From: Chrysochromulina tobinii
Lineage: Eukaryota; Haptophyta; Prymnesiales; Chrysochromulinaceae
Assembly: GCA_001275005.1 (NCBI GenBank)
Contig: JWZX01003173.1
Coordinates: 1-21,535 of the forward strand
Direction: 5' to 3'
Length of the DNA: 21,535 nucleotides
The notes below the pieces were generated by a model. That model was not told the origin of the DNA and did no database searches. It was given only the letters and a program-made list of their open reading frames with translations. A program made the translations under genes and the position numbers. The stretch's first letter is position 1. Each line of letters starts with the position of its first letter. Of this stretch, positions 1,864 to 21,535 are shown one piece after another.

Positions 1864-4800
1864 ATGGCAGCCATCCGCTTCATGAGGCCCAACGCGAGGA
1901 CGGAGCAAGCCCGCTTTATGAGGCCCAAAGCGAGGACGGAGCAAGCCCTTCGTCATCACGGCCTGGCGCGGAGGGTGCGCTCGTACAGCAGCTCCAGTTC
2001 ACCACTCGTCGTCGACATGCACAGCCACTTCCTCCCAGCTCGATGGCCAGACTTTGCGGCGCGGCACGGGGGCGAGGCGTGGCCGTGGATGCGGCACTCA
2101 GGGCAGCCGGCGGGGACGTTCGGGTACGGCCGTCAATGCAACGCGATGCTCATGCAGGGCGAGCGCGAGTTCCGGCCGGTGACGCGCGCCTGCTGGGATG
2201 CGGCCGAACGCGTCGCCGACATGGATAAGGCATGCGTGGACCTGCAGCTCATCAGCGCCACGCCCATCCTCTTTCAGTGGCAGCGGCCGCCAAAGGTCGC
2301 ACTGGACGTGGCGCGCCACTTCAACGACGCCGCGCTCGAGATGTGCGCGTCCCGTGACGCGCAGGGCCGTCTGCTACCCCTGTGCCAGGTGCCGCTCCAG
2401 AGCGTCGACGACGCCTGCCTGGAAGTGGAGCGCGCGATGGCGGCTGGCCACGTGGGCGTGCAGATCGGCAACCACGTGGGCACCCGCGATCTGGACGCGG
2501 ACGAGCTGGTCGCCTTCTTGAGCCACTGCGCCTCCATCCGCGCGCCCGTGCTCGTCCACCCATGGGACATGGACGACCTTGACGGCCGGCTCACGAAGTA
2601 TATGATGGGTTGGACAGTCGGGATGCCGATGGAGACCCACCTCTCGATCACGGCGATGATCCTGGGCGGTGCCTTCGACCGGCTGCCGCGCGAGCTCGAC
2701 CTGTGCTTCGCGCACGGCGGCGGCGCCTTCGCGTTCCTACTCGGACGACTCGAAAACGCATGGCATCATCGAGAAAACGCCAAGGGGAAAGCAATTCACC
2801 CGCCCTCGCACTACCTCGATCGGTTCTCGGTCGACTCGGCCGTCTTCGACGCACGCGCGCTCCGCCTGCTCATCGACACCTTCGGCGCGCACCGTGTCAT
2901 GCTCGGCTCCGACTACCCCTTCCCACTTGGCGAGCAGCTCGTCGGCGACTTGGTGCGCACCGCCCCCACTCTCACCGAGACCGAGCGCCGCCTCATCCTC
3001 GGCACCAACGCGGCGAAATTCTTCCGTGTCGCCGACAAGCTCGTCCAGCAACAGCACGAGCACGAGCACGAGCACGAGCACCAGCACCAACAGCAACAGC
3101 AGCAGCAGCAGCACCCTACGAAGTACGCCGGACCACCGTCACTGGTCCCGCCCCCGCGCCCCGCCCCCGCGCCTGCGCCCACCGCTGCGCCCACCGCCGC
3201 GCCCACCGCCGCGCTCGGCGCGGACGAGCCCCTGCGAATCTGGTACAGCGGCCGGCTGTATGCCCAAGGGCACGGGCCAACGGCTGCATGGTTCGACCGC
3301 AACGGCGTTCTCGAGTCGTTGCCGTCGTCGTCGTTGGCGGGCTTACGCGCCGCTGTCGTGCCGTTCGAGGACATGTACAGCGGGCTCACTCTCAGCCAAG
3401 GCCACCGGGCGACAGCTTGCTGGTTCGACGAGGGTGTGCCGGCTGCGATGCTCGATGCTCCTCGGCCGCTGCCAAATCTGGCAACCCCTCGGGCGCTGCC
3501 TCCATCTCTCTCCCTCCATCTCCCTCGGCACTCGAACCTCATCCCCCTCTCCACACCACTTTCGAGGTGGGCGCCACCGTCCACGTTCGCCAGGTTCACG
3601 CCGCCCGTCGCGCACGCCGCCGCAGGGCGTAGCCGTGTGCCAGTCGTCTCGACGCTGCTGAGCGCCCAGCTACAGGGGCAGGGCACCACCACCACCACCA
3701 CCACCACCACCGGCTCTGGCGGCGGCATGTTGCAGAGCTCGCGCGGCGTGCACTCGCCGCCGACGCGAGGGGGGCACACGGCGCTCACGCGTGGTGCGGA
3801 CAAGACACCCTCGTCCCAGCCGTACACGCCGCCAGTGGCGCATGCAGCGGCCGGGCTCAGCCGCGTGCCCGTGCGCGCCGGTCGCACCGCTGTGCCCGTG
3901 CGCACGTGGTCCGCGCTCAGCCGCATGCCCAAGCGGAGCTATGCGACCGCCGCTGCCGCGTCCGGCGCGGGGGGGCTTTATCACGTGCTCAACTTCATTG
4001 ATGGGCAGCCGCTCGCCGCCACGGGCGGCTCGCTGCCTCTGATCGACGCGGCGACGGGGCGCGTCCGCGGCTCAGTGGCCGCCTCGAGTGCAGCAGACGT
4101 GGACGCCGCTGTCGATGCAGCAGGGCGAGCGCTCTCTCGCGGGGAGTGGGCCGCAACCTCGATGGCCGCGCGCGCGGCGGTCCTGCAGCGCGCGGCGGAC
4201 TTGCTCGACGCCGAGTCCGAGGCCTTTGCCCAGGCGGAGGCGGCGGATGTGGGCAAGCCCGTCGCGCTCGCACGTGCCCTCGACGTGCCTCGCGCCGCGG
4301 CGAATCTGCGCATGTTCGCGGGCCTGGTGTGCCATGGCGAGCTCTCGTCCGTGCGCCACGGCGGCGGCGGTGACCGGAGCGGCGGCCTCGACGACGCGCT
4401 CAACTACACGGTCCGCAAGCCCGTCGGCGTCGTGGGTCTGATCACGCCGTGGAATCTGCCCCTCTATCTGCTGACGTGGAAGTTGGCACCGGCGCTGGCG
4501 ATGGGCAACGCGGTGGTGGCCAAACCGTCGGAACTCACCCCCACGACCGCCTCGATGCTCGCGCGCGTGCTCGAGCGTGCCGGCCTGCCGCCGGGCGTCT
4601 TCAACGTCGTGCACGGAACTGGCGCCGCCGTGGGCGCCGCCCTTTGCGCGCATCCTCGTGTGGGTGCGATCTCCTTTACCGGCGGTACTGCGACGGGCTC
4701 CCTTGTCGCTGCGGCCGTCGCGCCGCGCTTTGCCAAGCTCTCTCTCGAGCTGGGCGGCAAGAACCCACTGCTCGTCTTCGCAGATTGTGATCTCGAGCTC

Positions 4801-6123
4801 GCGGTGCAGGGCGCGGTGCGCGCCTCCTTTCTCAACTCAGGCCAGATCTGCCTGTGCGCCTCGCGCATCCTTGTCGAGGACACCGCCGACGGCTTCTACG
4901 AGCGCTTCGCCGCTGCGTTTGCGAACGCGGCATCGGCGCTCAAGCTCGGCGCCCCCACCGACCCATCCGCCGACATAGGCCCCCTCGTATCCGCCGCCCA
5001 GCGCGACAAGGTGACTGCGCTCTACTGCGCCGCCGTGGGCACCGACGGCGTCCGCACACTCGCCGGCGGTCTCGAGGATCCTCGGGCAGTTGCCGCCCAC
5101 GGCGCGCACCAAGGGGGGCACTGGTTTGCGCCAACCGTGCTCGACGGGCTGCCGATGGACGCGCCGCTGCCGCAGACGGAGGCGTTCGGTCCGTTGGTCA
5201 CAATCCACCCGTTTACGAGTGAGGTGGAGGCGGTCGAGCTGGCGAACGCGACGCAGTACGGGCTCGCCGCCTCTGTTTGGACAGAGGACCTGAGTCGCGC
5301 GCACACGATCGCGTCGCGGCTGGAGGCGGGCACCGTCTGGGTCAACTGCTGGCTCCACAGGCAGCTCCACATGCCCTTTGGCGGCGTCAAAGCCTCGGGC
5401 GTGGCGCGCGAAGGCGGGATGTACTCTCTCGACTTTTTCTCGGAAGAGTCCACTATCTGCATGAAGTTCGGCAACCGCACGCCACCGCCCATGCCTGGCC
5501 GCGCCGCGCGCGCCGCCGCCGCCACCGTTGCGCCGCCGCCGCCGCGCCTCGCCGTTGGCGCCGCCGTCACCACTCTCTGCGGTGCCGCGACGGCGCGATC
5601 GAGCGGTGGCTTTGCACGCCAGGGCGGCGGCGTGCGGGCGCTCAACACCGGCGCCACCGGCTACGTGGCGAGCGCGCCCAAACCTATGGGCGCCTATGCG
5701 CATGCGCGCGAGGCAGGCGGGCTGCTCTTTCTGGCGGGCATCGGACCGCGCGACCCGGCGACGGATAGCGTGCCCGGCGGACCGGTCGAAGCGGCCGACG
5801 GCACGCTCAACGACTACGACGCGCGCGCTCAGACGCGCCAATGCATTCAAAACGTGCGCACGGTGCTGGAGGCGCATGGGCTTGGGCTGGATGCCGTCGT
5901 TGATGTGCATGCCTTCCTTGTCGACATGAAGCGCGACTTTGCCGCCTTCAACGCTGAGTATGCGGCCGCTTTTGGAAAGCTGCCGGAACCGCCTGTACGC
6001 ACCACTGTCGAGGTCGGCCAGTTGCTGCCGGGCGGTCGGATCGCGGTCGAGCTCAAGGTGGTCGCGAAAGCGCCATCTGTGTACTTTGTCCCAGGTGGGA
6101 TACCTGACTGTGTGAAGGAGTGA
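1864..6123 (+). CDS. Trifunctional kynurenine-pathway fusion: ACMSD + AMSDH + 2-aminomuconate deaminase
   Basis: One uninterrupted 1419-codon frame from the first ATG (1864) to TGA (6121-6123). Residues 1-50 are Arg/Ser-rich without acidic clusters and end RRVRSYSSSSS, which resembles a mitochondrial presequence. ACMSD occupies about residues 48-392, a low-complexity linker 393-704, an aldehyde dehydrogenase of the ALDH8A1/AMSDH type 705-1203, a second linker 1204-1269, and a RidA-fold deaminase 1270-1410. Family knowledge: these enzymes convert ACMS to 2-aminomuconate semialdehyde (releasing CO2), then to 2-aminomuconate (NAD+-dependent), then to 4-oxalocrotonate plus ammonia, in tryptophan or 2-nitrobenzoate catabolism (nbaD/nbaE/nbaF in Pseudomonas). 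All key catalytic residues I know for the three families are present, so each module looks active. Mitochondrial location and substrate channelling are inferences. I cannot exclude a cryptic intron inside the long first linker. Confidence 0.9.
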   Translation: MAAIRFMRPNARTEQARFMRPKARTEQALRHHGLARRVRSYSSSSSPLVVDMHSHFLPARWPDFAARHGGEAWPWMRHSGQPAGTFGYGRQCNAMLMQGEREFRPVTRACWDAAERVADMDKACVDLQLISATPILFQWQRPPKVALDVARHFNDAALEMCASRDAQGRLLPLCQVPLQSVDDACLEVERAMAAGHVGVQIGNHVGTRDLDADELVAFLSHCASIRAPVLVHPWDMDDLDGRLTKYMMGWTVGMPMETHLSITAMILGGAFDRLPRELDLCFAHGGGAFAFLLGRLENAWHHRENAKGKAIHPPSHYLDRFSVDSAVFDARALRLLIDTFGAHRVMLGSDYPFPLGEQLVGDLVRTAPTLTETERRLILGTNAAKFFRVADKLVQQQHEHEHEHEHQHQQQQQQQQHPTKYAGPPSLVPPPRPAPAPAPTAAPTAAPTAALGADEPLRIWYSGRLYAQGHGPTAAWFDRNGVLESLPSSSLAGLRAAVVPFEDMYSGLTLSQGHRATACWFDEGVPAAMLDAPRPLPNLATPRALPPSLSLHLPRHSNLIPLSTPLSRWAPPSTFARFTPPVAHAAAGRSRVPVVSTLLSAQLQGQGTTTTTTTTTGSGGGMLQSSRGVHSPPTRGGHTALTRGADKTPSSQPYTPPVAHAAAGLSRVPVRAGRTAVPVRTWSALSRMPKRSYATAAAASGAGGLYHVLNFIDGQPLAATGGSLPLIDAATGRVRGSVAASSAADVDAAVDAAGRALSRGEWAATSMAARAAVLQRAADLLDAESEAFAQAEAADVGKPVALARALDVPRAAANLRMFAGLVCHGELSSVRHGGGGDRSGGLDDALNYTVRKPVGVVGLITPWNLPLYLLTWKLAPALAMGNAVVAKPSELTPTTASMLARVLERAGLPPGVFNVVHGTGAAVGAALCAHPRVGAISFTGGTATGSLVAAAVAPRFAKLSLELGGKNPLLVFADCDLELAVQGAVRASFLNSGQICLCASRILVEDTADGFYERFAAAFANAASALKLGAPTDPSADIGPLVSAAQRDKVTALYCAAVGTDGVRTLAGGLEDPRAVAAHGAHQGGHWFAPTVLDGLPMDAPLPQTEAFGPLVTIHPFTSEVEAVELANATQYGLAASVWTEDLSRAHTIASRLEAGTVWVNCWLHRQLHMPFGGVKASGVAREGGMYSLDFFSEESTICMKFGNRTPPPMPGRAARAAAATVAPPPPRLAVGAAVTTLCGAATARSSGGFARQGGGVRALNTGATGYVASAPKPMGAYAHAREAGGLLFLAGIGPRDPATDSVPGGPVEAADGTLNDYDARAQTRQCIQNVRTVLEAHGLGLDAVVDVHAFLVDMKRDFAAFNAEYAAAFGKLPEPPVRTTVEVGQLLPGGRIAVELKVVAKAPSVYFVPGGIPDCVKE
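1876..1947 (+). repeat. 36-bp in-frame tandem duplication in presequence
   Basis: Two adjacent 36-bp units differ at two bases and encode RFMRPNARTEQA and RFMRPKARTEQA. The duplication doubles an Arg-rich, acid-poor segment of the probable mitochondrial targeting region. Confidence 0.9.
2005..3042 (+). other. ACMSD (amidohydrolase-fold decarboxylase) module
   Basis: This module resembles bacterial ACMSD most closely, with near-identical phrases such as GVQIGNHVG, LVHPWDMD, CFAHGGGAFAFLLGR and GSDYPFPLGEQ. The expected zinc ligands are visible: H53-x-H55 in MHSHF, H232 in HPWD and D350 in SDYPFP. The catalytic histidine is H284 in AHGGG. The FRPV...CWD segment, which supplies the substrate-carboxylate arginine in this family, is present near 2170-2200. 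The length (about 340 residues) is normal for the family. It ends in the usual GTNAAKFFRV before the linker. Confidence 0.92.
3043..3975 (+). other. Long low-complexity linker with internal repeats between ACMSD and ALDH
   Basis: About 310 residues, unusual for an interdomain linker. In order it holds a His-Glu/His-Gln/poly-Gln tract (3052-3111), a Pro/Ala stretch (3136-3222), two copies of a YSGxxxxQGHxxTAxWFD motif (3232-3309 and 3370-3441), a Pro/Leu/Ser stretch (3460-3590), a 17-residue duplicated segment (3595-3645 and 3823-3873), a poly-Thr tract (3685-3711), and an Arg-rich end with MPKRSYATAAAASG just before the ALDH. The last piece resembles the tail of a mitochondrial presequence. 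No catalytic domain is recognisable here. Confidence 0.7.
3595..3873 (+). repeat. Dispersed 51-bp repeat pair in linker
   Basis: Positions 3595-3645 and 3823-3873 encode FTPPVAHAAAGRSRVPV and YTPPVAHAAAGLSRVPV. Synonymous differences between the copies suggest an older duplication held at the protein level. Confidence 0.85.
3976..5472 (+). other. 2-aminomuconate-6-semialdehyde dehydrogenase (ALDH8A1-like) module
   Basis: A complete 499-residue ALDH. NAD-fold and catalytic motifs are visible: PWNLPLYLLTWK with N864, the Glu in SLELGGKNP (E962), and the nucleophile in NSGQICLC (C996). The C-terminal NCWLHRQLHMPFGGVK motif precedes the SYDFFTE-like end SLDFFSEES. Arginines in NYTVRKPVG (R851) and NCWLHR (R1166) sit where the AMSDH substrate-binding arginine pair lies (R120 and R464 in the Pseudomonas enzyme). 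This supports AMSDH specificity over generic ALDH activity. Confidence 0.9.
5671..6105 (+). other. RidA/YjgF-fold 2-aminomuconate deaminase module
   Basis: About 140 residues, normal for the family. It begins PKPMGAYAHAREAGGLLFLA and contains GPRDPATDSVPGG, QNVRTVLEAHG, DMKRDFAAFNAEY, PPVRTTVEVGQL and IAVELKVVA. These phrases are closer to bacterial aminomuconate deaminases (AmnD/NbaF) than to generic RidA. The family's conserved substrate-binding Arg is R1379 and the Glu in AVELK is E1396. A 15-residue tail follows. A generic enamine/imine deaminase role is the alternative, but the fusion partners argue for 2-aminomuconate. Confidence 0.85.
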
Positions 6124-6457
6124 GTGAGGGTCGTGCGGCGGGTGCAAGGCGAGGCATGAACACACGCATGGACGCACAGCACGGGGCTACCGTACGTTGC
6201 TCAACGCAATGGTGTATGCCTTTTGTGGGCCGGAGCTCGCAGTTTGGAGACCATGACCCTGGACGTGCGCATACTGTAGTTGCTGCTCTCACCGCACTTG
6301 CTCACTCGAGAGCTGCCGTGTGGTAGAGCGTTGCGGCTCGGGGGATCGAACGTGCCGGTCGCCGCAGCCGCTCGAAAAGCGAAAAGCGAAAATCCCAGAC
6401 CGGCGCAAACCGCAATTGTGGAAGTTGTGTTCTTGTAATCTTGAATCAGAATACGCG
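6124..6457. other. Intergenic region before MYND gene
   Basis: Spacer of 334 bp. The downstream frame is open from 6320 but without an ATG until 6458. A segment at 6309-6350 has fragments resembling tRNA A and B boxes, but their spacing is too short for a tRNA. A run of GAAAAGCGAAAAGCGAAAA lies at 6373-6391. No clear core promoter is seen. Confidence 0.45.
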
Positions 6458-7307
6458 ATGACGTTAGAATTCACACCAGATGCACATTCACGTTCACACC
6501 GTCGCCGAACGAAAATGTTAGACGGCGACTCCATCGTCGACGCAGAAAGCGAAACCAGTGATGTCGAATGCGCTTACAGCGAGGAGGATCTGCAAAGGAT
6601 TGCTTTGGCGCGCAAGCTAGCATATGAGAATCGAGCACGAAGGCAGCTAGAGGCTCAACAGGCAGCAGAACTCACAGCGCTACTCTTTGGCGGCGGCGGC
6701 GCCTTGGCCGAACTCGTGCCACTTCCACCAGAATCAGTCTCGCTAAGCTCTTGCGCCAAGTGCCGTCGGCCCGTATCCAATCCTCGTGTGTGCTCTGCAT
6801 GCCTTGCAGCCTGCTATTGCTCGATCGAGTGCCATCGCTCGGATATGCAGCACAGCAGGCAGTGCCGCTTGTGGAATGCCCAGGCGGCACGGCGAGTGTG
6901 CGTGGCCCTACCTTGCCGACCGACGTGGGTTGATGACTGCATGGAGCATCGTGGGAAGGCCAAAGATCGAGATGCTATTCTCACCAAGCTCGGGCTCACA
7001 AGCGGAGCTTATGCTGCCGCGTGCGGCTGCGCTGTGATCGACTCTCGCGCCAGTGTGCGATACGACGACGAGGACGTTGGTGACGTGAGCCCCACCGTCG
7101 TAGTGCCGACGGCAGTGGGACCACCACCACTGAGCGTGGCGTCGTGGTCAGACTATTACGGAGCTCGGAGGATCCCAACCTCGTCGCCTCTGGCGTTGCT
7201 GATGACAGTTCCAATGACGGTCTACCACGCTCTGGTGAACGTCTTGCAGATCGACGCGTTGCAGCCAGGCGGTGCAGAAAGAGCTCGGCTCAGAGGCGGC
7301 AAAGGCA

Positions 7308-7364
<57 letters not shown>

Positions 7365-9046
7365 GTGGCGTCGTACGCGTTCATGTGATAGGGGCGGAGC
7401 TGCGCGAGTTGGTCCTGGCGCCCCTCTATCGCGAGCTCGCACTCTTGCTGCCTGCCGCCCGCATTCAGATCGTGATGATTGGGCCAGAGCTGAGGCCGGC
7501 CGCTAAGAAGGCAGCCGAGCTTGGAGTCTTTCCGGCCACGTGGCGGCTCGATGACGGGGCGTGGGGACGAGCACCATTGCACACCTTTGAGGGCAGCCAA
7601 GGGGGGAGAGTCTCAGTCTGGCTCCATTGGGCCACTTACGACCGCGCTTGCTTGGCCGCTCTCGGCACTCCCCATTGCGCAATCGCCCTCAATGCAGGTC
7701 TTGGTGTGGCCACGTATCGATGGGCGGATGCCATTGAGATCCTCTCCGCGGCGCGAACGCCATTCATAGTGACCGACTACTACGAGGCGGGGCTGTGGAT
7801 CGGGTGCCAGCTGCCGGCCGTCAAACGGTCACTCGAGCTCACATATCCCATCACGCTCAATCCCTTCCGTCAGCCGCTTGTGTGGCCCGAGGCGACGGGA
7901 CGTGCCACAAGCATGCCTTGGATGTGTAATGGCTTCATCTGCGGCTTCCACACAGAGCCCTCTGCCGAGGCCATGCTCCATGATGGAGTGGCTGTGGAAG
8001 GCGTGACGGCGGCGACAGGTGTGGGGGCAGCGCAAGAGAGTAGTTTGGTGATGGGTGTGGTGGCGGCGAGCGAACTCCGGGTGTCGGCAGGCGAGGCGTT
8101 AGCGATAGAGAAGGAGGCGCAAGAGGCGTCGGGCAAGGTGGTGGTAGCGGGCGAGATGACGAAACCCCAATTGGAGCCCCGATTGGCTCGTGAAGTCCTC
8201 GAGATTTCATCTGCAGATCGGTCGAGATCGCTCGAGATGCTGCAGAGTGGGGCCGTAGTGGAGTTGGTGCTGCCGGGGGCGGCGGTGATCGACCGATCGG
8301 GTGGACGCGTGTGGAGAGCGAGTGAGGAGCTCGCCGCGTGGCTCGAGCGCTACTTCGAGCGCTGTCGTGGGCAGGCGCACGGGAGCTCAGCAAGCCCTAG
8401 TCCTCGAGATTTCATCTGCAGATCGGTCGAGATCGCAGCAAGCCCTAGTCCGGCCCGTGTGACCTCTGCGTGCCCCTGCGCACCCTTCGCCTCGGCTCTC
8501 GAGCTGGGCGCCGGCGTGGGCTACGCTTCGATCACGCTCGCAAGGCTTGGTGTGCAGCGTGTGGTGTGCACCGACGGCGAGCCTGCGTTGCCACCTCTTT
8601 GCCAATCAAATGCAGCTCGCAACGGGGTGAGTGCCGAGCAGCTGCAGGCGACTGAGTTCAGATGGGGCAATGCTGCGCAGATGGCAAGCGTGCTCGAGGC
8701 CGTCGGCGCGGGCGGACGGTGTGCGGAGCTCATCGTGGGCAGTGACATTCTGTACAGTGTGGACGAGGCCGGCTTCGCGACTCTCGAGCAGACACTGCGC
8801 GATCTCATAGCCCGAGGTGGCTGCCGGCTTGTGGCCATCTGCTGGCAGGTGCGACACTACAATGAGGAGCGCTTCCTACCGCGGCTCGCCGACCTCGGTA
8901 GCGTGCGCGTTGCTTGGCGCTCGCATGGCCTTTCACTTGAAGATGTTTGCCCCGCTCAGAATACGGCCGGTGCCGATGCGTGGCGCGCTCAGCACTCGAT
9001 GACGTGGGCGGTGGGAGTCTTGGAGATGCATGGTACTTTAGTGTAG
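6458..9046 (+). CDS. MYND zinc finger - MSS51-type domain - seven-beta-strand methyltransferase fusion
   Basis: 862 residues from ATG 6458 to TAG 9044-9046; ATG 6515 is an alternative start. A MYND finger at residues 99-136 has all eight ligands (C99, C102, C112, C115, C121, C125, H132, C136). Residues about 229-500 match the C-terminal domain of MSS51/ZMYND15-17 proteins, with SWSDYYGARRIP, SPLALLMTVPMTVYHAL, ALNAGLG, FIVTDYYE and LNPFRQP. A (GGE)n insertion interrupts it at 7310-7363. Residues about 590-862 form a class I SAM-dependent methyltransferase of the FAM86/METTL21 (Methyltransf_16) type: motif I ALELGAGVG at G684 and the acidic-aromatic motif GSDILYS at D763. Family knowledge suggests protein lysine methylation, but the target is unknown. 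Yeast Mss51 is a mitochondrial COX1 translation factor; no targeting peptide is evident here. Confidence 0.85.
7310..7363 (+). repeat. 9-bp tandem repeat x6 (Glu-Gly-Gly)
   Basis: Six perfect copies of GAGGGCGGC encode (EGG)6 inside the MSS51-type domain, between the TVYHAL helix and the VRVHVIGAEL strand. This is a surface loop in the family, so length variation should be tolerated. Confidence 0.95.
8194..8451 (+). repeat. 38-bp exact repeat, second copy set within a 16-bp direct repeat
   Basis: Positions 8194-8231 and 8399-8436 are identical over 38 bp and 205 bp apart, so they are read in different frames. The second copy lies between direct repeats of CAGCAAGCCCTAGTCC (8388-8403 and 8436-8451). 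The net effect is an in-frame 48-bp insertion of 16 residues just before methyltransferase motif I. Confidence 0.9.
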
Positions 9047-9537
9047 GTGACTTTGAGCGGCTGCGACGATCGTTCCCCCGAAAGAGCCCACAGCAACACG
9101 AACCATTCCATATTTTCCATGCCCTCAACAGCAAAAACGCACCGATACAGAACATCGCAATTGCCGAGGCTTTAGAGTTTCTAGTGCGGCTGTCATGGCG
9201 CCTGTGCAGCTGTGCACACAGCGGTAGGGAGTGACAGAACCCGCCGTCCCGCTCCCAAAAGAGGAGATTTCTCTATCCTGCGTTGTGCGCGGCATGCGAT
9301 GCCCTCAGGCACACCGAAGAGCAGCGTCGGTGTACTGCTCGCTGCGCCGCGCCCGTTGGGAGTGATACATGTATCAATAATCCTGCAACAACCCGTAACG
9401 CGAGCAGGGGAGCAGCGGTGAGCACTTCAGGCACTCCACCGCCACCATGGTGAGCACGCGGCGTGGATACTCTGTAATGTGCGTGCTAAAGCGAGTTTGA
9501 GATCTGCGCTCTCAATCTACGACCGCACCCATGGGTG
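9047..9537. other. Intergenic region before ABC transporter
   Basis: Spacer of 491 bp holding the 3' UTR of the MYND gene and the 5' region of the transporter gene. Apart from the short ORF at 9447-9500, I see no RNA gene or clear core promoter. ATGTATCAATAATCC near 9368 is locally AT-rich. Confidence 0.5.
9447..9500 (+). other. Short upstream ORF with strong Kozak context
   Basis: ATG 9447 sits in GCCACCATGG, a perfect metazoan-type initiation context. It opens a 17-codon frame ending at TGA 9498-9500, shortly before the transporter frame. It could be a regulatory uORF. It could also be the real first exon of the transporter, with TCT|GTAATG at 9474 as a possible donor. Neither reading is proven. 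Confidence 0.35.
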
Positions 9538-12500
9538 ATGGCTGCTGCCGTACTGTCTTTGGAGCGGGCTGGGAGCTGCTGTCGCACGCAGTGTTCCTGT
9601 AAGGCGCCTCGCGATATTATGGTGGCGAGGGCCAAAGCAGAAGCGAGCTTGTTGGGGACTGCAAGGGAGTTATCATGGAATTCTACTAGCTTCATCGCAG
9701 TTCGGAACCTGCATTCCCGAAGGCAGACGCGCCTGTGCCTGTTTGCGATCGGAGTTGATCTCAGATCGGAGTTGTCGATTCGCAAAGTTTCCTTAATATG
9801 GCAAGAGGTCGACGCCATGCGGGAGTTGTATGTTAAAGACACCATATCTGCTTTAACATACAAGTTTGGAGAGCCCAGGGGGAGCAACGGAGCAAGGCTA
9901 TCTGCGTACATCTCGTCGAAGTTCCGTTGGTGCAGAGGATTCCGAGAAGGCCTCTGTGGCGTCTGTGGCTTCGGAGGCCGTCGGGAAAGCGATAAAGTGC
10001 TTTCGATGTCGCTCTTCGAGCTACCGCCATACCACCCCATATCCCCATCGCTCTTTTGGAGAGATACGGGAGGCATCGCTGTGATCGCGTGCGCGATCGG
10101 AAGCTTCGCGATCAGCTTCGCAATCATGAGCCGATGCGCCATCGAGGTTCGCCAGGCACCGCTGATGCAGCTGCAGGAGGGCCTCCTTGTCACGGGGGGC
10201 GCCGCACTGCCTGCTGAAATGGAAGATGTCATCATGCCACGGACAAAGCTCTGCTCCAGCGCGATTGCGGCTCTCTGTTACGTGCTCGCGATCGGTGAGC
10301 TTCTTCAACTTTGGCTGGATGCCGCTGAATGGCCTCGGGCCTTGCGAGCCATCGCCTTCCTCACCATCGGCATCGCGACAGAGATTGAAGCCGGCCTGAA
10401 GCCGCCAGCGAGTGCACGGCTGCCTTCGAAGCTTTGGTGGCGCGGCCGAGCGCTCGTGCGGTTTGCGAGTGCATGCGCTCTTGCAGCGGCCCACTCCCTT
10501 CCCATTCTGGAACCAGGATGGGAGATGCAACCCGTGTCGGGATACAGCGCGGACTGGCAATGGGTGGACTTGGTGTTCGGCGGTTGCACGGCACTATTGG
10601 CGGGCGCAATCGCACTCGCCTTCGTCGCCGGCCCGCCGCTACTTGTGCCCGCCCCATCGCCGCCGCCGCCCATGCAGGTTGCTTGGCTCCTTCCCAAAAC
10701 ACTTTACTTGTTTTGGACGCCCGTCATGCTGGGGCTCTATCGTCGGATTATCACCAAGCCCGACGACCCTCTGAGCGTCGACAGCCTCCCTTGCATTGAC
10801 CCGACGATCGCAGCGGCCAGCGCGTGGGCAGAGGGTACTACGAGCCGCGCGCGGCGAGAAGCGAAGCAGAGGAAGTCCAATCTCGAGGCGAAGCAGAGGA
10901 AGTCCAATCTCGTGGTCTCGACGGAGTCGCCGCTGCCAGCCGCTCCCGCTCCCGCCTCGTTGCTCCCTGAGGTGTGGCTGGTGGTGCGGCTGGACGCCAT
11001 CATACAGTTCCTGTGGTGCTTCGCCGTGGTGTTCTTGGAGTATGCTGCCCCCTTCGGCATGCTCGGCCTCATCGGTTACATACAGTCGAACACCGGTGGC
11101 GCAGTGCCGCCCTCCGCCATCGTTTTCGGCGCCTGTGTTGCGCTGGGGCCGCTCGCACTGAACACGTGCCACGGCCAGGCCAACGCGTCAGGTTGGCGCA
11201 CCGGAACCAAGCTCAGGGCCTACTTCACTCGAGCGGTGTGCGAGAAGGCGTTGCGCTTCGACAGCGCGGCATCCAGCCAGTCGATCGGCCTGATGACCAA
11301 CCTGCTCGCCGTCGACACTCAGAACATTGTGGATTTTGCAGGGTGGGCGGCGTGGCTTTGGCTGGAGGGCATGCAGCTCGCCATGACGCTGGCGGCGCTC
11401 TTTTATCTGTTGGGGTATGCGGCCTTTGGCGGCCTGGGCGTCTGCCTCTTCGCCTTTCCTTTGAATGCGGTGGTCATGCGCCAAGTCAAGATTCTGCAAG
11501 ATCGGCTGATGGGCGAGAAGGACAAGCGGATGGCGCTGATCACCGAGGCCATCGGAGCCATTCGTGCCATCAAGCTACACGCTTGGGAGGACGAGTTTGA
11601 GAGACGCATTGCCAAGTTGCGCCACGACGAGGTGGCCACGCTCCTTGCATACCAGAAGTTGAACGCCATCACGTCGACCATGTGGCTGACCACCCCCACC
11701 ACGGCCGCTCTCGCCTCGTTCCTGATCAAGTCGCGTCTCATCCCTCCCTACCGAATCACGGCGGCAGAAGGCTTTACCGCCCTCACGCTCTTCCAGCTAC
11801 TCTCCGTCTCCCTCACGTTCCTGCCGTACATGATTAACTCCGCTATCCAGGCCAACGTCGGCCTTCGTCGCATCTCGCGATTCCTTGCGCTCGACGATGT
11901 CGAAGGACGGGACCACGGCCTTCAGCTGGGCATCGCGACGGGAGAGGTTGTCGTGCAGGAGGCATCGTTCAAGTGGACGTCGCCGCCGCCAGAGGAGAAG
12001 GAGCAGAGGATGGAGAAGAAGGACACGTCGGCGAAAGGAAGGCGCCGGTGGGGTATGAAGTGGGGCAGCAGCCAGCGTGCCCAGACCGAGGGCACGGCGA
12101 CATCTACCACGGCTCCTCTACTGGCTTCTGCGACACCGCCAGTTCCGACCACGCTGCCCGTGAGTTCCATGACGGGCTCATCCACCGACGGCATTCAGCC
12201 GATGAGCGCGGCTACGACTCCTAGCGTCACGCTCAGCAACGTATCGCTCGCTGTTCGCCCGGGCGAGCTTGCCATCATCTGCGGCCCAACTGGGTGCGGC
12301 AAGTCCTCCCTCCTCGCAGCCATGCTGGGGGACATGCCACGGCTCGGTGGACTCGCGGCCATTCGAGGTAAGATCTCGTACTGCCCGCAACGCTCGTGGC
12401 TTGCGAACGCGTCGCTGCGGGAGAACATCCTCTTTGGCTCCAAATTCGAATCCTCGAGGTATGAGGCCGTCCTCGACGCGTGCGCCCTGCGTGCGGACAT

Positions 12501-14925
12501 CGCCCTCCTCCCTAACGGCGATGCTACCGAGATTGGCGAGCGCGGGATCAACCTGAGCGGCGGGCAGCAGCAGCGTGTCAACTTGGCGCGCGCGTGCTAT
12601 GCTGACACAGACGTCGTGCTCCTCGATGATGTGCTGAGTGCCGTTGATGCCCACGTGGGGGCGCACATCTTCGATCAGTGCATTCTGGGCTTCCTCACCG
12701 GCCGCACGAGGGTGCTCGTCACCCACTCCGATGACCTCTGATGACCTCTGATTGACCTCCGACGATTGCCGCTGATGACCTCTGATTGCCTCCCTCATCA
12801 GGTGCTCGTCACCCACTCCGTGGCCCTCACCGTCCTACGCGCTGATAAGGTGATCGCCATGCATGCAGGCAGGGTGGTCGCCGTCGGCCCTCCCGACGCG
12901 GAGATCCGCGAGATTCAGGAGCTCGTCAAGCAGGCGACCGGCTCTTCGCAGCCCAATTCTCGAGCCGGCTCGCGCAACGCGTCGGTCGTGGATCTCTCCA
13001 CGGTGGCCGACGGCACCGAAGTGGTCGCCGGCCCGACCAAAAAGTCCGCTGCCATTTCTGAGGGCGGCGGCGGCGGGGGGGGCAGCAGCAAGATCACGAA
13101 GGAGGAGGAGCGCTCGAGAGGGGCCGCCAAGCTGGCAACCTACCTCTTCTACCTGCGCGCGGCCGGTGGGCTGCCGTTCGCTACCGCCTTCATGCTCGTG
13201 CTTGGCCTCTATTCCTCCATGGACCCTCTTCAGAGTCTTGCGCTGAAGCACTGGATGGATGAGATGGCGGGCGATGGAGCGACCAAGCCAGAAGCCCTGC
13301 TCGCCTGCGGCTCCTACACGCTTGCCGCGACGGGCCTGATCGCCGTCACGATGGTGCGCAACATCATTCTGCCGTACGCCTCAGTGGCTGCGTCCAAGAA
13401 GCTTCACGGGGGCATGGTGCGAAGTGTGATGCACGCTACCGTCTCGTGGTATGAGGCGACCCCCCTCGGGCGCATCCTCAATCGCTTCTCGGGCGATATC
13501 TCCAAGATCGACCAGTCGATCGCTTCTCAGTTCAAGGACGTCGTGGTGTTCGCCTTCAACCTGGTCGGTATTGCGCTCGTCTGCTCTCTCGGCACCGGAG
13601 ATCCCAAGGCACAAATCGTCGTCTTGAGCGCCGTGGCGCTGGCGACGATCTGCTCGTGGCTCGTCTACTCGATCTATCGGGTCGTGGCCCGAGAGCAGAA
13701 GCGGCTCGAGAGCGTGACCAAGTCGCCTCTGCTCGCCTTCTTTGCCGAGCTTGTTCAGGGCGCTGCAGTGGTGCGCGCCTTCGGTGAGCAGCAGCGCATC
13801 ATTGAGATCCTGGACGCGCGCGTCGATAACGCCAACCGGACCTTGTACAACCTCGAGGGGCAGACGAACCAATGGCTACGTGTGACGATGAATCTGATCG
13901 GATCGCTCGTCACCGCCTCGGTGGTGGCGGCCGTACTTTGGCAACGGGAGGACCTCGGGGGCGGTGATGCGGGCCTCACGCTGAGCTACTCGACGCAATT
14001 TGTGGGGGCGGTCAATGCCTTTCTCACCTTCAAGAGCATGCTTGAGATCTCGATGAACGACGTCGAGCGTGTGGGCGAGTACACCAAAGGCCTACCTGCC
14101 GAAGCCTACGAGGCCGATCCTCACGCTCCCTCTCCTCCGAAGGAGTGGCCCTCGGCCGGCGCCATCGACTTTCGGGATGTGCGGCTCAAGTACCCAACCG
14201 CAAGCACCCCGGTCTTCGAGGCGCTCTCATTCTCTGTGCCGGCGCGAACGCGTGTGGGTGTAGTGGGTCGCACGGGCGCCGGTAAGTCCTCTCTGGCCGT
14301 CGCCCTCTTCCGCACGGTAGAACTGTCGGCGGGGAGCATCGTCATCGACGGCATCGATGTGCGCCGCCTCTCTCTGCAGCAGCTGCGCAGCTGCCTCTCC
14401 ATCATCCAGCAGGAGCCCACCCTGTTCCAGGGCACCGTGCGATACAACCTCGCTCCGGTCACTGAGCACGCCGATGCGGAGCTGTGGGATGCGCTGCGTC
14501 GGTCGGGGCTCGACGCAAAGGTCGAGGCGATGTCGGGAGGGCTAGACGCGAGCATATCCGAGGGCGGCAGCAATCTCTCCGCCGGAGAGCGGCAGCTCCT
14601 GTGCATGGCGAGAGCAATGCTTCGACGCCGACCGATCCTTGTGATGGATGAGGCGACGGCGAGCGTCGACCATGTGACCGACACACACATCCAGCAGATG
14701 GTCAAGCGCGACTTCAAGGGAAATTGCACTGTCATCACGATTGCGCACCGGCTGCACACGGTGGCCTTCTACGACCGTATTCTGCTCCTCGGGGGCGGCA
14801 AAGTGCAGGAGTTTGACACGCCGCTTCGGCTACTCACAACTTCAAATAGCAGCTTCCGCAAGCTCGCGGAGGAGTCGGGAGACTATGAGAGCCTCCTGCA
14901 GGCGGCGAAGGAGGCTGAGGAGTGA
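9538..14925 (+). CDS. ABCC/MRP-type full ABC transporter (one 90-nt intron, 12712-12801)
   Basis: Two same-frame segments joined across the intron give about 1765 residues from ATG 9538, or about 1609 from ATG 10006. The later start fits MRP lengths better, and 9538-10005 has weak protein character. Five hydrophobic segments (10073-10650) form a TMD0 and are followed by the linker phrase DDPLSVDSLPCIDP. TMD1 spans 10970-11880. NBD1 has Walker A GPTGCGKSS (12283), signature LSGGQQQR (12553) and Walker B VVLLDDVLSAVDAHVG, with Asp where the catalytic Glu usually sits, as is normal for MRP NBD1. TMD2 spans 13140-14080. NBD2 has GRTGAGKSS (14266), LSAGERQ (14575), VMDEATASVD (14641) with the catalytic Glu, and the H-loop IAHR (14740). 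Family knowledge: ATP-driven export of glutathione conjugates and other organic anions, often across vacuolar or plasma membranes. The substrate here is unknown. Confidence 0.92.
9826..9863. repeat. 13-bp perfect inverted repeat
   Basis: TTGTATGTTAAAG (9826-9838) and CTTTAACATACAA (9851-9863) are exact reverse complements around a 12-nt loop. The element is AT-rich and lies in the doubtful 5' part of the transporter frame. It suggests that 9538-10005 is leader, intron or promoter rather than coding. Confidence 0.85.
10861..10914 (+). repeat. 27-bp in-frame tandem duplication
   Basis: Two nearly identical 27-bp units encode adjacent EAKQRKSNL-type copies in the basic cytosolic linker between TMD0 and TMD1 of the ABC transporter. 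The units differ only in the codon after CTC (GAG versus GTG). Confidence 0.9.
12712..12801 (+). other. 90-nt GT-AG spliceosomal intron in ABCC gene
   Basis: The intron starts GTGCTCGTC and ends CTCATCAG, phase 0, between AGG and GTG codons. Removing it restores the MRP NBD1 H-loop RVLVTHSV. Retaining it gives a TGA stop at 12739. A branch-site-like CTGAT (12782-12786) and a pyrimidine tract precede the AG. The sequence GGTGCTCGTCACCCACTCCG occurs at both borders (12711-12730 and 12801-12820), exactly 90 bp apart. The interior is built from repeats of TGACCTCTGAT. Confidence 0.85.
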
Positions 14926-17253: not shown

Positions 17254-17876
17254 GACGCATATGGGCCATGAAAGCGGGGCGGGGCTTAGGAGCATTCACA
17301 CCGGTCAGCTCTGAGGCAGACGATAAATCTACTACATGTGATTACACACAGAGCGAAGAGCGGGGCGCGCCTGCGGGCTGCGCTTGACGCTAAAGCCCCC
17401 TCGTGGACGTGGTGTCCCGCGTGTTCCCGGTGGTCCTTAGGCTTAGCTTGAAGGTGACCTTGTGGGGAAACCCTACTGTCAGTGTGGGGCGAAATTTTGT
17501 TTAAGAGTCTAGCACCGTGTTGGCGATCAATGACTACCGGCTTTAAGCTTCCATCATTGAGCAGTCTGTGTTGATTCACCTACTCCACAGCTTTCTTACT
17601 ATTTGAATGAAACCGACGTCTCGTCCACCTTCCAAAAACAACATACGAATTACTTCTTAATGTTGAAGGCCGCGAAACGGCGTTCGGTCAGTTCGGTCAG
17701 CGTGCGGTCAGTCGGGAGATTGAGAATTCCAAGAACCCAGAAAGGAAACGCGTCTCCAAAATGAAATTGATGACTTCCTAAACTTGGGGATGAAACTTGG
17801 GGCCTCTACTGTCTCTTCTAACATCTTCGACGTCCCCAGCTAGCTTGGAGCCGCCAGGTCAGACAAGAGAGGGAGC
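17254..17876. other. Intergenic region before the ion channel gene
   Basis: Spacer of 623 bp with visibly lower GC than the genes. It contains three CGGTCAG copies (17685-17711), a direct repeat AAACTTGGGG (17780-17789 and 17793-17802), and a plausible 3' splice site: branch-like CTAAC at 17818-17822, a pyrimidine-rich stretch and CCCCAG ending at 17839. No RNA gene is recognised. Confidence 0.5.
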
Positions 17877-20800
17877 ATGGCTGCTATGATTGCGAGAAGA
17901 TTGGGGTCTCATGGGTCGACAACGTCCTACTCTCTGCTGGACGCGATTGCCGAGCAACAATCTCGCATGCCCACACTTGACGCGCTGCAACGACCCGGGT
18001 TCAGGGGCAAGGAGGTGCTCGGCACAAGCGGCAAGGTGTATGCCGGCGTGCTCGGATGCTCACCTGGCTTGCCTGTTTGGCGCGAGCCTAGACGCAGCGC
18101 TATCCTGATTGTAGAGTCCAAGTGGTTCGACCCGTTCATCCTGGTCACTATTTTGGTGAATTGTTGCATGATGGCATATGAGTCGCCACTTGATCCGGAG
18201 GGCACACAAAAGGAAGCCATCCTTGGCGTGTTCGAGTGGGTCTTCCTTATCATCTTTACTCTCGAGCTCCTGAGTAAGGCGCTCGCCTACTCTCTTTTTT
18301 GGCACCGTGAGGCCTACCTGCGCGACCCGTGGTGCCAGCTCGACTTCCTCGTCGTCTCGCTCGCGTGGTTGCCCATCCTGTTCCCATCGATGGGTAATTA
18401 CTCCGCGCTACGAGCGTTTCGCGCACTGCGACCGCTGCGCGCGCTCAAGCGCATGCCGGGTATGCCCCTGCTCGTACAGTGGATCCTGTCGGTGCTCCCC
18501 AAGATGGGCAACGTGTTCGCGCTGGGCGGCTTCGTCTTCCTCATCTTCGGCATCGTGGGCATGGAACTCTTCAAAGGGTCACTGCACTACCGGTGCGCTC
18601 TGCCCGGCTTCGAGGAGACGCCCGGGCACCCAATCAGCGATGTGCGTCGCCGGTTGCTTGAGGCGCGCGTGGCTTCCGATGCTGGTGTTAGCGACATTGA
18701 CCAAACGGCTTGGGACACTGGTATCCCGTGCAACTCGCACCTCGATGACGCGCAGCAGTGCCCGGATGGGTCATCGTGCGCCTATTTCGACAAGGACCCA
18801 AATGATGGACTGACCTCGTTCGACTCAGTCGCCATCTTCTTCATCACCTTTTTCCAATCGATCACCTGCGACTTCTGGGCGACGTCCATGTACTCTCTCA
18901 TGGCTGCGTTCAGCCCTTGGGTGTGGATGTACTTCGTCCTGATCATCATGGTCGTTGGCTTCTTCGTAATCAACCTCTTCCTTGCGGTCATCTACCTCGA
19001 ATACTCCGACACGCGGGCGCAGATAAAGCTAGAGAGAAGCTCGACTGCTCAACCCGCTAGCTCCGTGCGCACGCAAAGCTCCGCACGCTCCACCGATACA
19101 GCTCTCGGTGCCGATGCACTCGGTGCCGATGGCAGCGAGGAGACTTGTTCCGATTCGGTCCTCGTCGACCGGAGTGCTGGCAAGGAAGAGCCGGCGACGC
19201 TGCTCGCGGGCGAGTCCGTGCTCTCAGACGGCACGACGAAACCACCTCGCAGCTTCTCGGGCAACTGTGCTGACTGCTCGCTGGACGGGCCGTGCCGTCG
19301 CCCGTTTAGGGTGATCGCGAACGCAGAGTGGCTCAACCACACCTCGACGGCGCTAGTGCTGGTCAACATGTTGTTGATGTGCATGGCCTATGAGGGCATG
19401 AGCGAAGAGTATGCTGCGGATCTGGAAAGTGCAGCCGCCGTCATCACGTGGTGCTTCATCATCGAGATGGGCATCAAGCTGATTGGGCTGGGCTGTGCGG
19501 CGTACTGGGCCGACGGCTGGAACTGCCTCGACGGCACGATTGTCATCCTCAGCATCATCGAGATGCTCGTCACGTGGCTCTCGACCGCAAGCGGCGCCAA
19601 CGTGTCCGCCTTTCGGGTACTTCGAATGCTTCGAATGCTTCGCGTGCTTCGCGTGCTGCGCCTTATGCGCAGCTGGAAAGGCCTGTACAAGATTGTCATC
19701 ACATTCATCCGAGCGCTTCCCCAGATGAAAAACCTCGTAGTGCTCGTGGTGCTCACGATGTTCATGTTCGCGCTGCTTGGTATGCAGCTAATTGGCGGCC
19801 TCTATACCCCGAAGACGGGCTACTCGCTCGAGCCTTGCCCCGGTGGGCTGTGCGCCGACGAGTCGCTCCAGGAGAAGCCCTACTATCATTTTGACTATTG
19901 TGGGCCGGCGATGATCACCGTCTTCATCTTGCTTACGGGCGAGTGGTTTGAGGCGCTGGAGCCGGCCGCGTACATCCTGGGCGCGCCCGTATCGCTCTTC
20001 TTCATCTTCGTGGTGATGCTCGGCAAGTTCCTTCTCTTGAATCTCCTCATAGCGGTGATCTTGAATGAGTTTGCCGAGGAGTCGTCCTCGCCACCGTCAA
20101 CGATCGCGCGGTCGGACACATCGCGCGACAGGTTCACGAGCCGTGCTAGAAACCCTTCCATCACGAGCCGCGACGCGGCGGAGGGCGACCACGCAAGCCA
20201 CGACGCGGACGCCCGTGACCACAACCGCAAGGCGCTGCTCGATTCAAATGCTACCGCTGACGCCGACCCACCGTGGCCCGAGGAGCACTCGCTCTACTAC
20301 TTTGGGCCACGCCACCCGCTCCGGTGCTTCTGCCGTGACCTCATCGCCAAGCCGCAGTTCGACCAGGTGATCATCGCCGCCATCATCGTCTCGTCGATCT
20401 GCCTCGCACTCGACTCGCCACGCCTCGACCCTGAATCCGACCTGGCGCACACGTTGCAGACAATGGACCTCTTCTTCACGGGCCTCTTCTTCGGCGAGAT
20501 GATGGCCAAAGTGATTACATTGGGCTTCCTCTTCACCAAGGACGCCTACCTCAAGTCCCCGTGGAACCAGCTCGACTTTTGTATCGTGATGATCTCGTTG
20601 ACTCTGCTGCTCGCCGAGTCGATACCGCAGCTGCAGCCGCTGCGCGTCCTGCGAATCACGCGCGTGCTGCGCCCGCTGCGTCTTGTCTCGCGTAACGCTG
20701 GAATGAGGCTCATCATCACCTCCCTCTTCAAGGCCATGCCTGACGTAAGCAATGTCGTCGGCGTCATCTTCGTCATACAGTTTGTCTTCGCCGTCGTCGG

Positions 20801-21535
20801 CATGCAGCTCTTCAGTGGCTCCTTCGGGAGCTGCAGCAACCCCAGCATCCTCACACGGCTTGAGTGCGACGACAAGGATTCGCGTTGGTCGAACCCGCCG
20901 ACGGGCTGCTTCGACGACTTTGGGCAGTCGATGCTCGCCCTCTACATTATGAGCACCGGCGACTCGTGGGAGAAGCCGATGTGGATCATGATGGGCGCGG
21001 CGGGCTCGGGCCATGCGGCAGTGCGCAACGACTTCTCGGCCGCGTCGATCTATGCGCTCGCGTGGATGCTTATGAGCTACATCTTTGCCATGAATCTCTT
21101 TGTGGGCGTCGTCGTGGACAGTTTCAGGCGCATCCAGCAGCAGGAGAGCGGTAGCGCAATCATGACCCTCGAGCAGCAGCAGTGGGCAAACACGATGAAG
21201 GCTCTCGCGCATGCGCTGCCTAGCAAGGCGTCGAGCCCACCAACGCATTGGTTTCGCCGTGCCTGCTACGATTTCATCATGACCCCGATCTTCGACAGCA
21301 TCATCACGTTTGTGATCATCGCCAACATCAGCGTGATGGCGTTGGACTTTTGGGGCATCGAGCAGGACGAGCAGCTATTCGGCTTTTATAATACGGCGAT
21401 GCAGTCATTCTCGTACATCTACTACATCGAGTGCATCCTGAAGATGGCTGCGATGGGTACTGACAACTACTTTGCCGATAACTGGTGCCGCTTCGACTTC
21501 TTCTTGGTGTGCACCTCGTTGCTCGACCAGTTCGC
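17877..21535 (+). CDS. Four-domain voltage-gated cation channel alpha subunit (NaV/CaV superfamily), 3' truncated
   Basis: Open from ATG 17877, the first after the in-frame TAG at 17841, to the window edge: 1219 codons without a stop. Domain I covers about residues 82-365, II 482-735, III 828-1086. Domain IV starts near 1139 and is cut in S3. Each complete domain has six hydrophobic segments, a charged S4 and a pore loop. S4 phrases are LRAFRALRPLRALKR (I), FRVLRMLRMLRVLRVLRLMR (II) and LRVLRITRVLRPLRL (III). Pore loops are ITCDFW (D332), LLTGEWFEAL (E689) and MSTGDSWEK (D1029). Cysteine-rich loops precede the pores. Family knowledge: plasma or flagellar membrane channels opened by depolarisation that carry Na+ or Ca2+, used in flagellates for action potentials and beat control. 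Ion selectivity cannot be settled without domain IV. Confidence 0.93.
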   Translation, partial: MAAMIARRLGSHGSTTSYSLLDAIAEQQSRMPTLDALQRPGFRGKEVLGTSGKVYAGVLGCSPGLPVWREPRRSAILIVESKWFDPFILVTILVNCCMMAYESPLDPEGTQKEAILGVFEWVFLIIFTLELLSKALAYSLFWHREAYLRDPWCQLDFLVVSLAWLPILFPSMGNYSALRAFRALRPLRALKRMPGMPLLVQWILSVLPKMGNVFALGGFVFLIFGIVGMELFKGSLHYRCALPGFEETPGHPISDVRRRLLEARVASDAGVSDIDQTAWDTGIPCNSHLDDAQQCPDGSSCAYFDKDPNDGLTSFDSVAIFFITFFQSITCDFWATSMYSLMAAFSPWVWMYFVLIIMVVGFFVINLFLAVIYLEYSDTRAQIKLERSSTAQPASSVRTQSSARSTDTALGADALGADGSEETCSDSVLVDRSAGKEEPATLLAGESVLSDGTTKPPRSFSGNCADCSLDGPCRRPFRVIANAEWLNHTSTALVLVNMLLMCMAYEGMSEEYAADLESAAAVITWCFIIEMGIKLIGLGCAAYWADGWNCLDGTIVILSIIEMLVTWLSTASGANVSAFRVLRMLRMLRVLRVLRLMRSWKGLYKIVITFIRALPQMKNLVVLVVLTMFMFALLGMQLIGGLYTPKTGYSLEPCPGGLCADESLQEKPYYHFDYCGPAMITVFILLTGEWFEALEPAAYILGAPVSLFFIFVVMLGKFLLLNLLIAVILNEFAEESSSPPSTIARSDTSRDRFTSRARNPSITSRDAAEGDHASHDADARDHNRKALLDSNATADADPPWPEEHSLYYFGPRHPLRCFCRDLIAKPQFDQVIIAAIIVSSICLALDSPRLDPESDLAHTLQTMDLFFTGLFFGEMMAKVITLGFLFTKDAYLKSPWNQLDFCIVMISLTLLLAESIPQLQPLRVLRITRVLRPLRLVSRNAGMRLIITSLFKAMPDVSNVVGVIFVIQFVFAVVGMQLFSGSFGSCSNPSILTRLECDDKDSRWSNPPTGCFDDFGQSMLALYIMSTGDSWEKPMWIMMGAAGSGHAAVRNDFSAASIYALAWMLMSYIFAMNLFVGVVVDSFRRIQQQESGSAIMTLEQQQWANTMKALAHALPSKASSPPTHWFRRACYDFIMTPIFDSIITFVIIANISVMALDFWGIEQDEQLFGFYNTAMQSFSYIYYIECILKMAAMGTDNYFADNWCRFDFFLVCTSLLDQF
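19620..19661 (+). repeat. 9-bp tandem repeats encoding the domain II S4
   Basis: Successive units CTTCGAATG, CTTCGAATG, CTTCGCGTG, CTTCGCGTG and CTGCGC encode (LRM/LRV) steps. With the flanks this gives seven arginines at every third residue (R580 to R598). Confidence 0.9.

Follow-up and report, generated by a model that had tools for sequence, protein, structure and literature searches.

A forward-strand gene in the window (the whole 21,535-nucleotide stretch analysed) encodes three enzyme modules in one frame; the modules retain conserved residues, the fusion is conserved, and motifs recur at its joints. The product is probably a mitochondrial polyprotein that mitochondrial processing peptidase (MPP) cuts into three enzymes, a precursor of the Arg5,6 type with new content. 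We favour this reading because MPP-cut precursors and engineered MPP sites are known and because near-identical cores stand at the joints of several relatives. The sequence has the features of an MPP precursor: one frame, at least two enzymes, a basic N-terminus and an internal MPP-type motif before a downstream enzyme.

Three modules in one reading frame

Positions 1864–6123 (+) translate as one frame of 1,419 amino acids with zero internal stops. The open stretch of this frame begins at 1822 and ends at 6123, and the first ATG of the fusion gene lies at 1864. Its features are as follows.

1864..6123, +: fusion ORF with presequence-like region, ACMSD, linker 1, AMSDH-type ALDH, linker 2 and RidA-type deaminase (ORF, Pfam)
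1864..2001, +: N-terminal presequence-like region, residues 1–46 (composition and motif)
1978..1992, +: putative processing site 1, RSYSS, residues 39–43; R39 is 8 residues ahead of the ACMSD module (motif)
2002..3039, +: ACMSD module, residues 47–392, metal and substrate residues present (Pfam, structure-relative alignment)
3040..3981, +: linker 1, residues 393–706, low complexity, coding-like composition (composition, relatives)
3934..3948, +: putative processing site 2, RSYAT, residues 691–695; R691 is 16 residues ahead of the ALDH module (motif)
3982..5472, +: AMSDH-type aldehyde dehydrogenase module, residues 707–1203 (Pfam, structure-relative alignment)
5473..5649, +: linker 2, residues 1204–1262, basic, zero acidic residues (composition)
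5635..5649, +: putative processing site 3, RALNT, residues 1258–1262; R1258 is 5 residues ahead of the RidA module (motif)
5650..6075, +: RidA/YjgF-type deaminase module, residues 1263–1404; best solved match 2-aminomuconate deaminase (Pfam, structure-relative alignment)

Pfam placed Amidohydro_2 at residues 50–388 (E 3e-35), Aldedh at 722–1197 (E 2e-148) and Ribonuc_L-PSP (RidA/YjgF) at 1270–1401 (E 3e-22), and the resulting order of ACMSD, AMSDH-type ALDH and RidA is the reaction order. A sequence-only reading had described three modules in one frame, in reaction order and with intact active-site residues; the ORF, the Pfam matches and the alignments to solved relatives bear this out. Linker 1 looks coding rather than intronic because its GC3, at 81%, is close to that of ACMSD (86%), ALDH (84%) and linker 2 (83%), with RidA at 76%, whereas the flanks on either side of the gene have 49% and 52%. 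Within linker 1 the middle third dips to 74%, and the last 15 codons of the frame have 53%. Linker 1 of the window's protein (P0001) is 90% identical to that of relative P0003; the alignment has 40 gap columns, and the frame is open in both proteins. An Rfam search gave zero matches across the window.

The best solved relative of the first module was 2hbv, a bacterial-type ACMSD (E 2e-99, 337 bits), and 2wm1, the human ACMSD, scored lower at 228 bits. By hand count on the 2hbv alignment, the key ACMSD residues H9, H11, R51, H177, H228, R239 and D294 are all present. These residues and the close solved match support the identification of this module as ACMSD. The ALDH module matched AMSDH 4u3w best (E 4e-133), at 448 bits compared with 365 bits for the best match of any other molecule name. 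AMSDH residues R120, N169, E268, C302 and R464 are all present by hand count on the 4u3w alignment, with Arg810, Glu962, Cys996 and Arg1166 of the fusion corresponding to R120, E268, C302 and R464 of the P. fluorescens enzyme. Roles for C302, E268 and the substrate arginines R120 and R464 are described in the available text of PMC4286809. The residues and the best solved matches argue for AMSDH as the identity of the second module. Against TIGR03216, the 2-hydroxymuconic semialdehyde dehydrogenase equivalog, the module scored 526.7 bits, under the curated cut-off of 693.25, although this was its top NCBIfam match; the ALDH of one bacterial locus (L030) scored 815.8 bits. For the RidA module the best solved relative was 2-aminomuconate deaminase 6izh (E 2e-19), by a slim margin of 73 to 67 bits, and the Arg of the RidA 'RTT' stretch is present in the 6izh alignment.

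The fusion in relatives and its likely bacterial-type ancestry

A search for proteins holding all three domains, which the sequence-only reading had proposed, found them together in 15 of the 120 protein-database matches listed (530 were above threshold): P0002–P0010 and P0013–P0018. P0004 is a Chrysochromulina 'OHIO' gene model with 99% identity over 64% of the query. Four three-domain proteins (P0009, P0010, P0013 and P0014) carry transcript-style names (TRINITY, INCI), and two of these, P0010 and P0013, miss the start of ACMSD. The order ACMSD–ALDH–RidA was common to the relatives mapped. By these sequences the three-enzyme fusion is conserved and not confined to the window. We ruled out an assembly artefact as its source because the fusion recurs in at least 15 proteins, all among the matches listed, from several sources. 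That earlier reading knew of no described fusion of all three, and we likewise found no earlier description of an ACMSD–AMSDH–RidA fusion in the open-access literature, a scope with subscription journals mostly outside it.

A whole-protein search of the own genome (53 Mb, 2,253 contigs) gave 11 matches, and the ACMSD module was covered by the window alone. The other 10 were ALDH parts with 24–45% identity. Elsewhere this genome has six further Amidohydro_2 places and six further RidA-domain places.

We scanned for bacterial ACMSD with two peptide patterns, which can miss other lineages, and found 25 loci, all in Pseudomonadota and 35–59% identical. At 19 of the 25, ACMSD is preceded on its own strand by the ALDH and RidA genes, and every one of these loci reads ALDH–RidA–ACMSD; the three are directly adjacent, with gaps of less than 80 bases between matches, in 7 of the 19. 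The remaining loci had RidA only (2) or neither (4), some on short contigs. Locus L030 also carries a gene for 3-hydroxyanthranilate dioxygenase, placed between those for RidA and ACMSD. Rotating the bacterial order ALDH–RidA–ACMSD gives the order of the fusion. The bacterial nba/amn genes, for ACMSD, AMSDH and 2-aminomuconate deaminase, resemble the fusion in having the same three activities by homology, on one strand within an 8-kb flank at 19 of the 25 proteobacterial loci. They differ in being separate genes in another order, and the fused ALDH and RidA fall outside the operon clades.

Trees were built from 84 of 158 extracted rows for ACMSD and 97 of 153 for ALDH, by a quick search with SH-aLRT as the only support measure. 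In the ACMSD tree, 14 fused and 13 standalone sequences clustered together (SH-aLRT 99) amid bacterial-type sequences; some of these standalone ACMSDs may be fragments of fusions. In the ALDH tree, 23 of 26 fused or part-fused sequences grouped with 6 standalone ones (99), apart from 18 operon ALDHs (100), and the ALDHs of P0011, P0326 and P0357 were placed elsewhere. The best-scoring named bacterial ALDHs came from Myxococcota and Holophagaceae. A branch of 1.2 separates the RidA modules from the operon RidA proteins. We set aside as unsound a further RidA tree, from which P0326 was omitted and which included paralogues of the own genome, since one of these (L020) was apparently read from the opposite strand and others formed very long branches. 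The trees suggest that the eukaryotic fusion likely had one origin from bacterial-type genes. The proposal that it descends from a bacterial operon has only partial support: 19 of 25 loci do carry all three genes, but their order differs and the fused ALDH lies outside the operon clade.

Processing-type motifs at the joints

We defined a broad motif, R-x-[FYLIM]-x-[ST], and a strict one, RX[FYLI][SA][ST]. The latter is the plant ICP55 consensus RX(F/Y/I/L)|(S/A)(S/T), which follows an MPP -2R site (PMC8847149, available text). The fusion protein has exactly three broad matches, at residues 39, 691 and 1258, each shortly before one module; site 3 (RALNT) fits the broad motif only. When the three segments were shuffled, 6 of 20,000 trials placed each motif no more than 28 residues from the end of its own segment. 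Whole-protein shuffles gave a mean of 2.2 motifs against the 3 observed; it is the placement that is raised and not the count. Residues 1–46 contain 11 K/R against 2 D/E and include the tandem repeat RFMRPxARTEQA, and by eye the N-terminus lacks a hydrophobic signal-peptide core. This composition and the motif point to a targeting role for the N-terminal region, with a plastid address of the chain as a possible alternative. Among relatives and standalone ACMSDs, the motif was found at only 3 of 13 N-termini (P0001, P0003 and P0006), and K/R exceeded D/E in all 13.

Linkers were counted after near copies had been dropped (20 to 16 for linker 1, 22 to 20 for linker 2), and P0004 was left out because its gene model is spliced. 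Of the 16 linkers 1, between ACMSD and ALDH, 12 had the broad motif (shuffle mean 3.0) and 9 the strict motif (0.71). In linker 2, between ALDH and RidA, the counts were 17 of 20 (2.3) and 11 of 20 (0.49). None of these four counts was reached in 2,000 shuffles, which hold composition and not shared ancestry, the relatives being non-independent samples. The broad motif lies within 60 residues of the RidA module in 16 of the 20 linkers 2. The 30 residues ending at the last site carry a net positive charge in 11 of 12 site-bearing linkers 1 and in all 17 site-bearing linkers 2. Folded modules have the broad motif 18 times in 17,650 amino acids, or 1.0 per 1,000.

Linkers range from 8 to 314 amino acids among relatives, linker 1 of the window being 314, and those bearing motifs span 18–314. 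Most have one motif match each. Sites before ALDH, in relatives and the window, read KRSYAT, RRRSYAT, RRGLST, MRGFST and RRAFSS; those before RidA in relatives read RRGLHT, RRNFSS, RRSFSS and RRAYST. Site 2 is absent from four relatives with a short linker 1 of 22–35 amino acids (P0008, P0009, P0010 and P0246). The linker 2 site is absent, as counted, from P0011, P0357 and P0018, the last showing RGMCT by eye, clipped by the boundary. In P0017 the linker 1 site is preceded by a stretch with 6 D/E. We modelled relative P0006 (1,198 residues) with AlphaFold from a 20-sequence alignment, using only the confidence along the chain (mean pLDDT 69, pTM 0.48, 720 of 1,198 residues at pLDDT of at least 70). 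Low-confidence stretches at 361–494 and 1010–1060 are the linkers holding sites 472 and 1028, and further, shorter ones lie inside modules. The P0006 counterpart of linker 1 is predicted to be disordered.

Several linkers have features of their own. P0011 (873 amino acids) is an ALDH followed by three tandem RidA repeats, with an 8-residue ALDH–RidA linker without a processing motif. P0326 and P0357 represent a separate ALDH–RidA two-domain fusion with long, acidic-rich linkers and no site near the RidA module, the single broad match in P0326 lying 140 residues upstream of it. A short 'WFD' element, reading 'GHxxDA[ST]WFDD' in P0005 and P0007, occurs in linker 1 of P0001, P0005, P0007, P0017 and P0018, whose linkers are otherwise unlike. 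We considered it as a shared docking motif and rejected this; DAxWFD had 5 matches genome-wide against 3 for a reversed control.

Natural precursors that MPP cuts internally are reported for yeast Arg5,6 and rice RPS14-SDHB (available text of PMC8847149 and PMC10450427). With these and other tandem precursors (Atp25, Rsm22-Cox11), as described there, the fusion shares one frame, an N-terminal presequence (here presequence-like) and an internal, presequence-like linker with an MPP motif before a downstream protein. It differs in comprising three catabolic enzymes with two internal putative sites, in algae, with cleavage predicted from sequence. According to the accessible part of PMC10450427, MPP in yeast mitochondria cuts artificial polyproteins that contain doubled RGGGRRAFHT or RGGGRRAFST peptides, and Nif, violacein and isobutanol enzymes joined by 'RRAFHT' or 'RRAFST' were cut there. 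Joints of relatives resemble these engineered sites (RRAFSS in P0015, RRAYST in P0285 and RRGLHT in P0005); the engineered sequences are artificial and doubled, and the window's own internal sites read KRSYAT and VRALNT.

Probable cleavage, competing readings and pathway context

In our picture the gene is nuclear, belongs to a Chrysochromulina-like haptophyte and would encode a mitochondrial polyprotein, whose chain the N-terminal presequence would carry into the matrix. There MPP would cleave at an R-x site ahead of each of the three modules, and Icp55 would perhaps trim the residue exposed. The products would be ACMSD, still carrying linker 1 at its end, AMSDH and 2-aminomuconate deaminase, at 1:1:1 in one compartment. 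We estimate roughly 68, 60 and 17 kDa for these pieces (residues 42–693, 694–1260 and 1261–1419), less for the first should linker 1 be trimmed, against about 148 kDa for the uncut chain. From ACMS the enzymes would form, in turn, 2-aminomuconate semialdehyde, 2-aminomuconate, and 4-oxalocrotonate with release of ammonia. We infer import, cleavage and the activity of the products. The fusion would act like an operon, giving equal dose and a single address, and passage through the 35-s intermediate would be sped by co-location and not by a joined chain.

The earlier reading had proposed instead that the chain stays intact, as a trifunctional enzyme that channels unstable ACMS-derived intermediates and limits picolinate and quinolinate. 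Module order does equal reaction order in the relatives mapped, the half-life of 2-AMS, which decays to picolinate, is 35 s (PMC4286809, available text), and in the four short-linker-1 relatives without a site ACMSD and ALDH could stay joined. Yet the window's linker 1 is 314 residues of low complexity, and the P0006 linkers are low-confidence in the model. ACMSD, ALDH and RidA oligomerise differently, which would make a fixed three-way assembly awkward. We consider intact channelling unlikely because presequence-like MPP/Icp55-type sites stand in both linkers in most of the family. The linkers' resemblance to presequences of the downstream module would also suit a history in which three presequence-bearing genes fused by stop loss, leaving motifs as relics that are no longer cut. 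Uncut relics should decay, however, and the motifs persist in relatives 52–76% identical to P0006 over the alignment, in linkers of 18–314 amino acids, which makes this history very unlikely in our view.

That the gene is spliced into other products seems extremely unlikely. The P0004 model does skip two in-frame stretches with a GT start and a CAG end, and lacks residues 'VRT' to 'MLQ' and 'VNC' to 'ARQ', but the skipped stretches hold the ACMSD C-terminus and the ALDH substrate arginine R464. GC3 is coding-like, and the three domains occur together in four transcript-named proteins, though P0010 and P0013 are without the ACMSD start. We take the P0004 model as wrong or a minor splice form. 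Points against the cleaved polyprotein itself include the following: a cut at site 2 would leave a tail of about 300 residues on ACMSD, and single copies of the engineered sites are cut less well than doubled ones (PMC10450427, accessible part), which counts against it because most linkers here have a single match.

We lean towards seeing here a natural three-enzyme polyprotein with two internal MPP cuts that supplies the enzymes of a catabolic stretch at a constant ratio, doing for a eukaryote what an operon does. The four relatives without site 2 may keep an ACMSD–AMSDH two-enzyme unit; if so, nature has already run the comparison of cut and joined forms among relatives. If the polyprotein reading is true, a three-enzyme catabolic route joins the few known MPP-processed precursors, and in algae; its linkers are natural MPP linkers of the type engineers built by hand; and ACMSD, the step competing with NAD synthesis, is placed in mitochondria. 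More generally, a fused gene in a protist is not necessarily a fused enzyme.

Two IDO-like places (contigs C2018 and C1076) and a quinolinate phosphoribosyltransferase (nadC) were found in the own genome, and quinolinate synthase (nadA) had no match there (control positive in 12 of 14). A kynurenine route to NAD is reported for haptophytes in the available text of PMC4217691, and IDO and nadC without a nadA match fit such a route. The claim that the fusion suppresses quinolinate outright sits poorly with these findings. Should NAD derive from ACMS, an ACMSD located in mitochondria could keep the breakdown route apart from NAD synthesis. Searches of the own genome for upstream enzymes read exons singly in a possibly incomplete assembly, and non-detection in them is not absence. 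For 3-hydroxyanthranilate dioxygenase, neither TIGR03037 (control 1 of 14, below cut-off) nor PF06052 (control 0 of 14) had a match at E 0.001, and a bacterial protein query gave a best E of 0.028 in a repetitive frame, which we judged chance. Kynureninase (control 9 of 14, 2 over cut-off) and tryptophan dioxygenase (control 2 of 14) had no match.

Further frames follow on the forward strand of the window. One ORF at 6257–9046 (+) unites an MSS51 C-terminal domain (residues 319–544) with Methyltransf_16 (681–877), an unusual pairing. At 9490–14925 (+) an ABC transporter with two membrane and two ATPase domains is spread over two frames, with a break at about 12741–12745 flanked on both sides by 'VLVTH'. 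The break is probably an intron or an assembly fault, and introns may therefore occur in this genome. A four-repeat voltage-gated cation channel (Ion_trans, 4 stretches) at 17844–21533 (+) runs past the window end.
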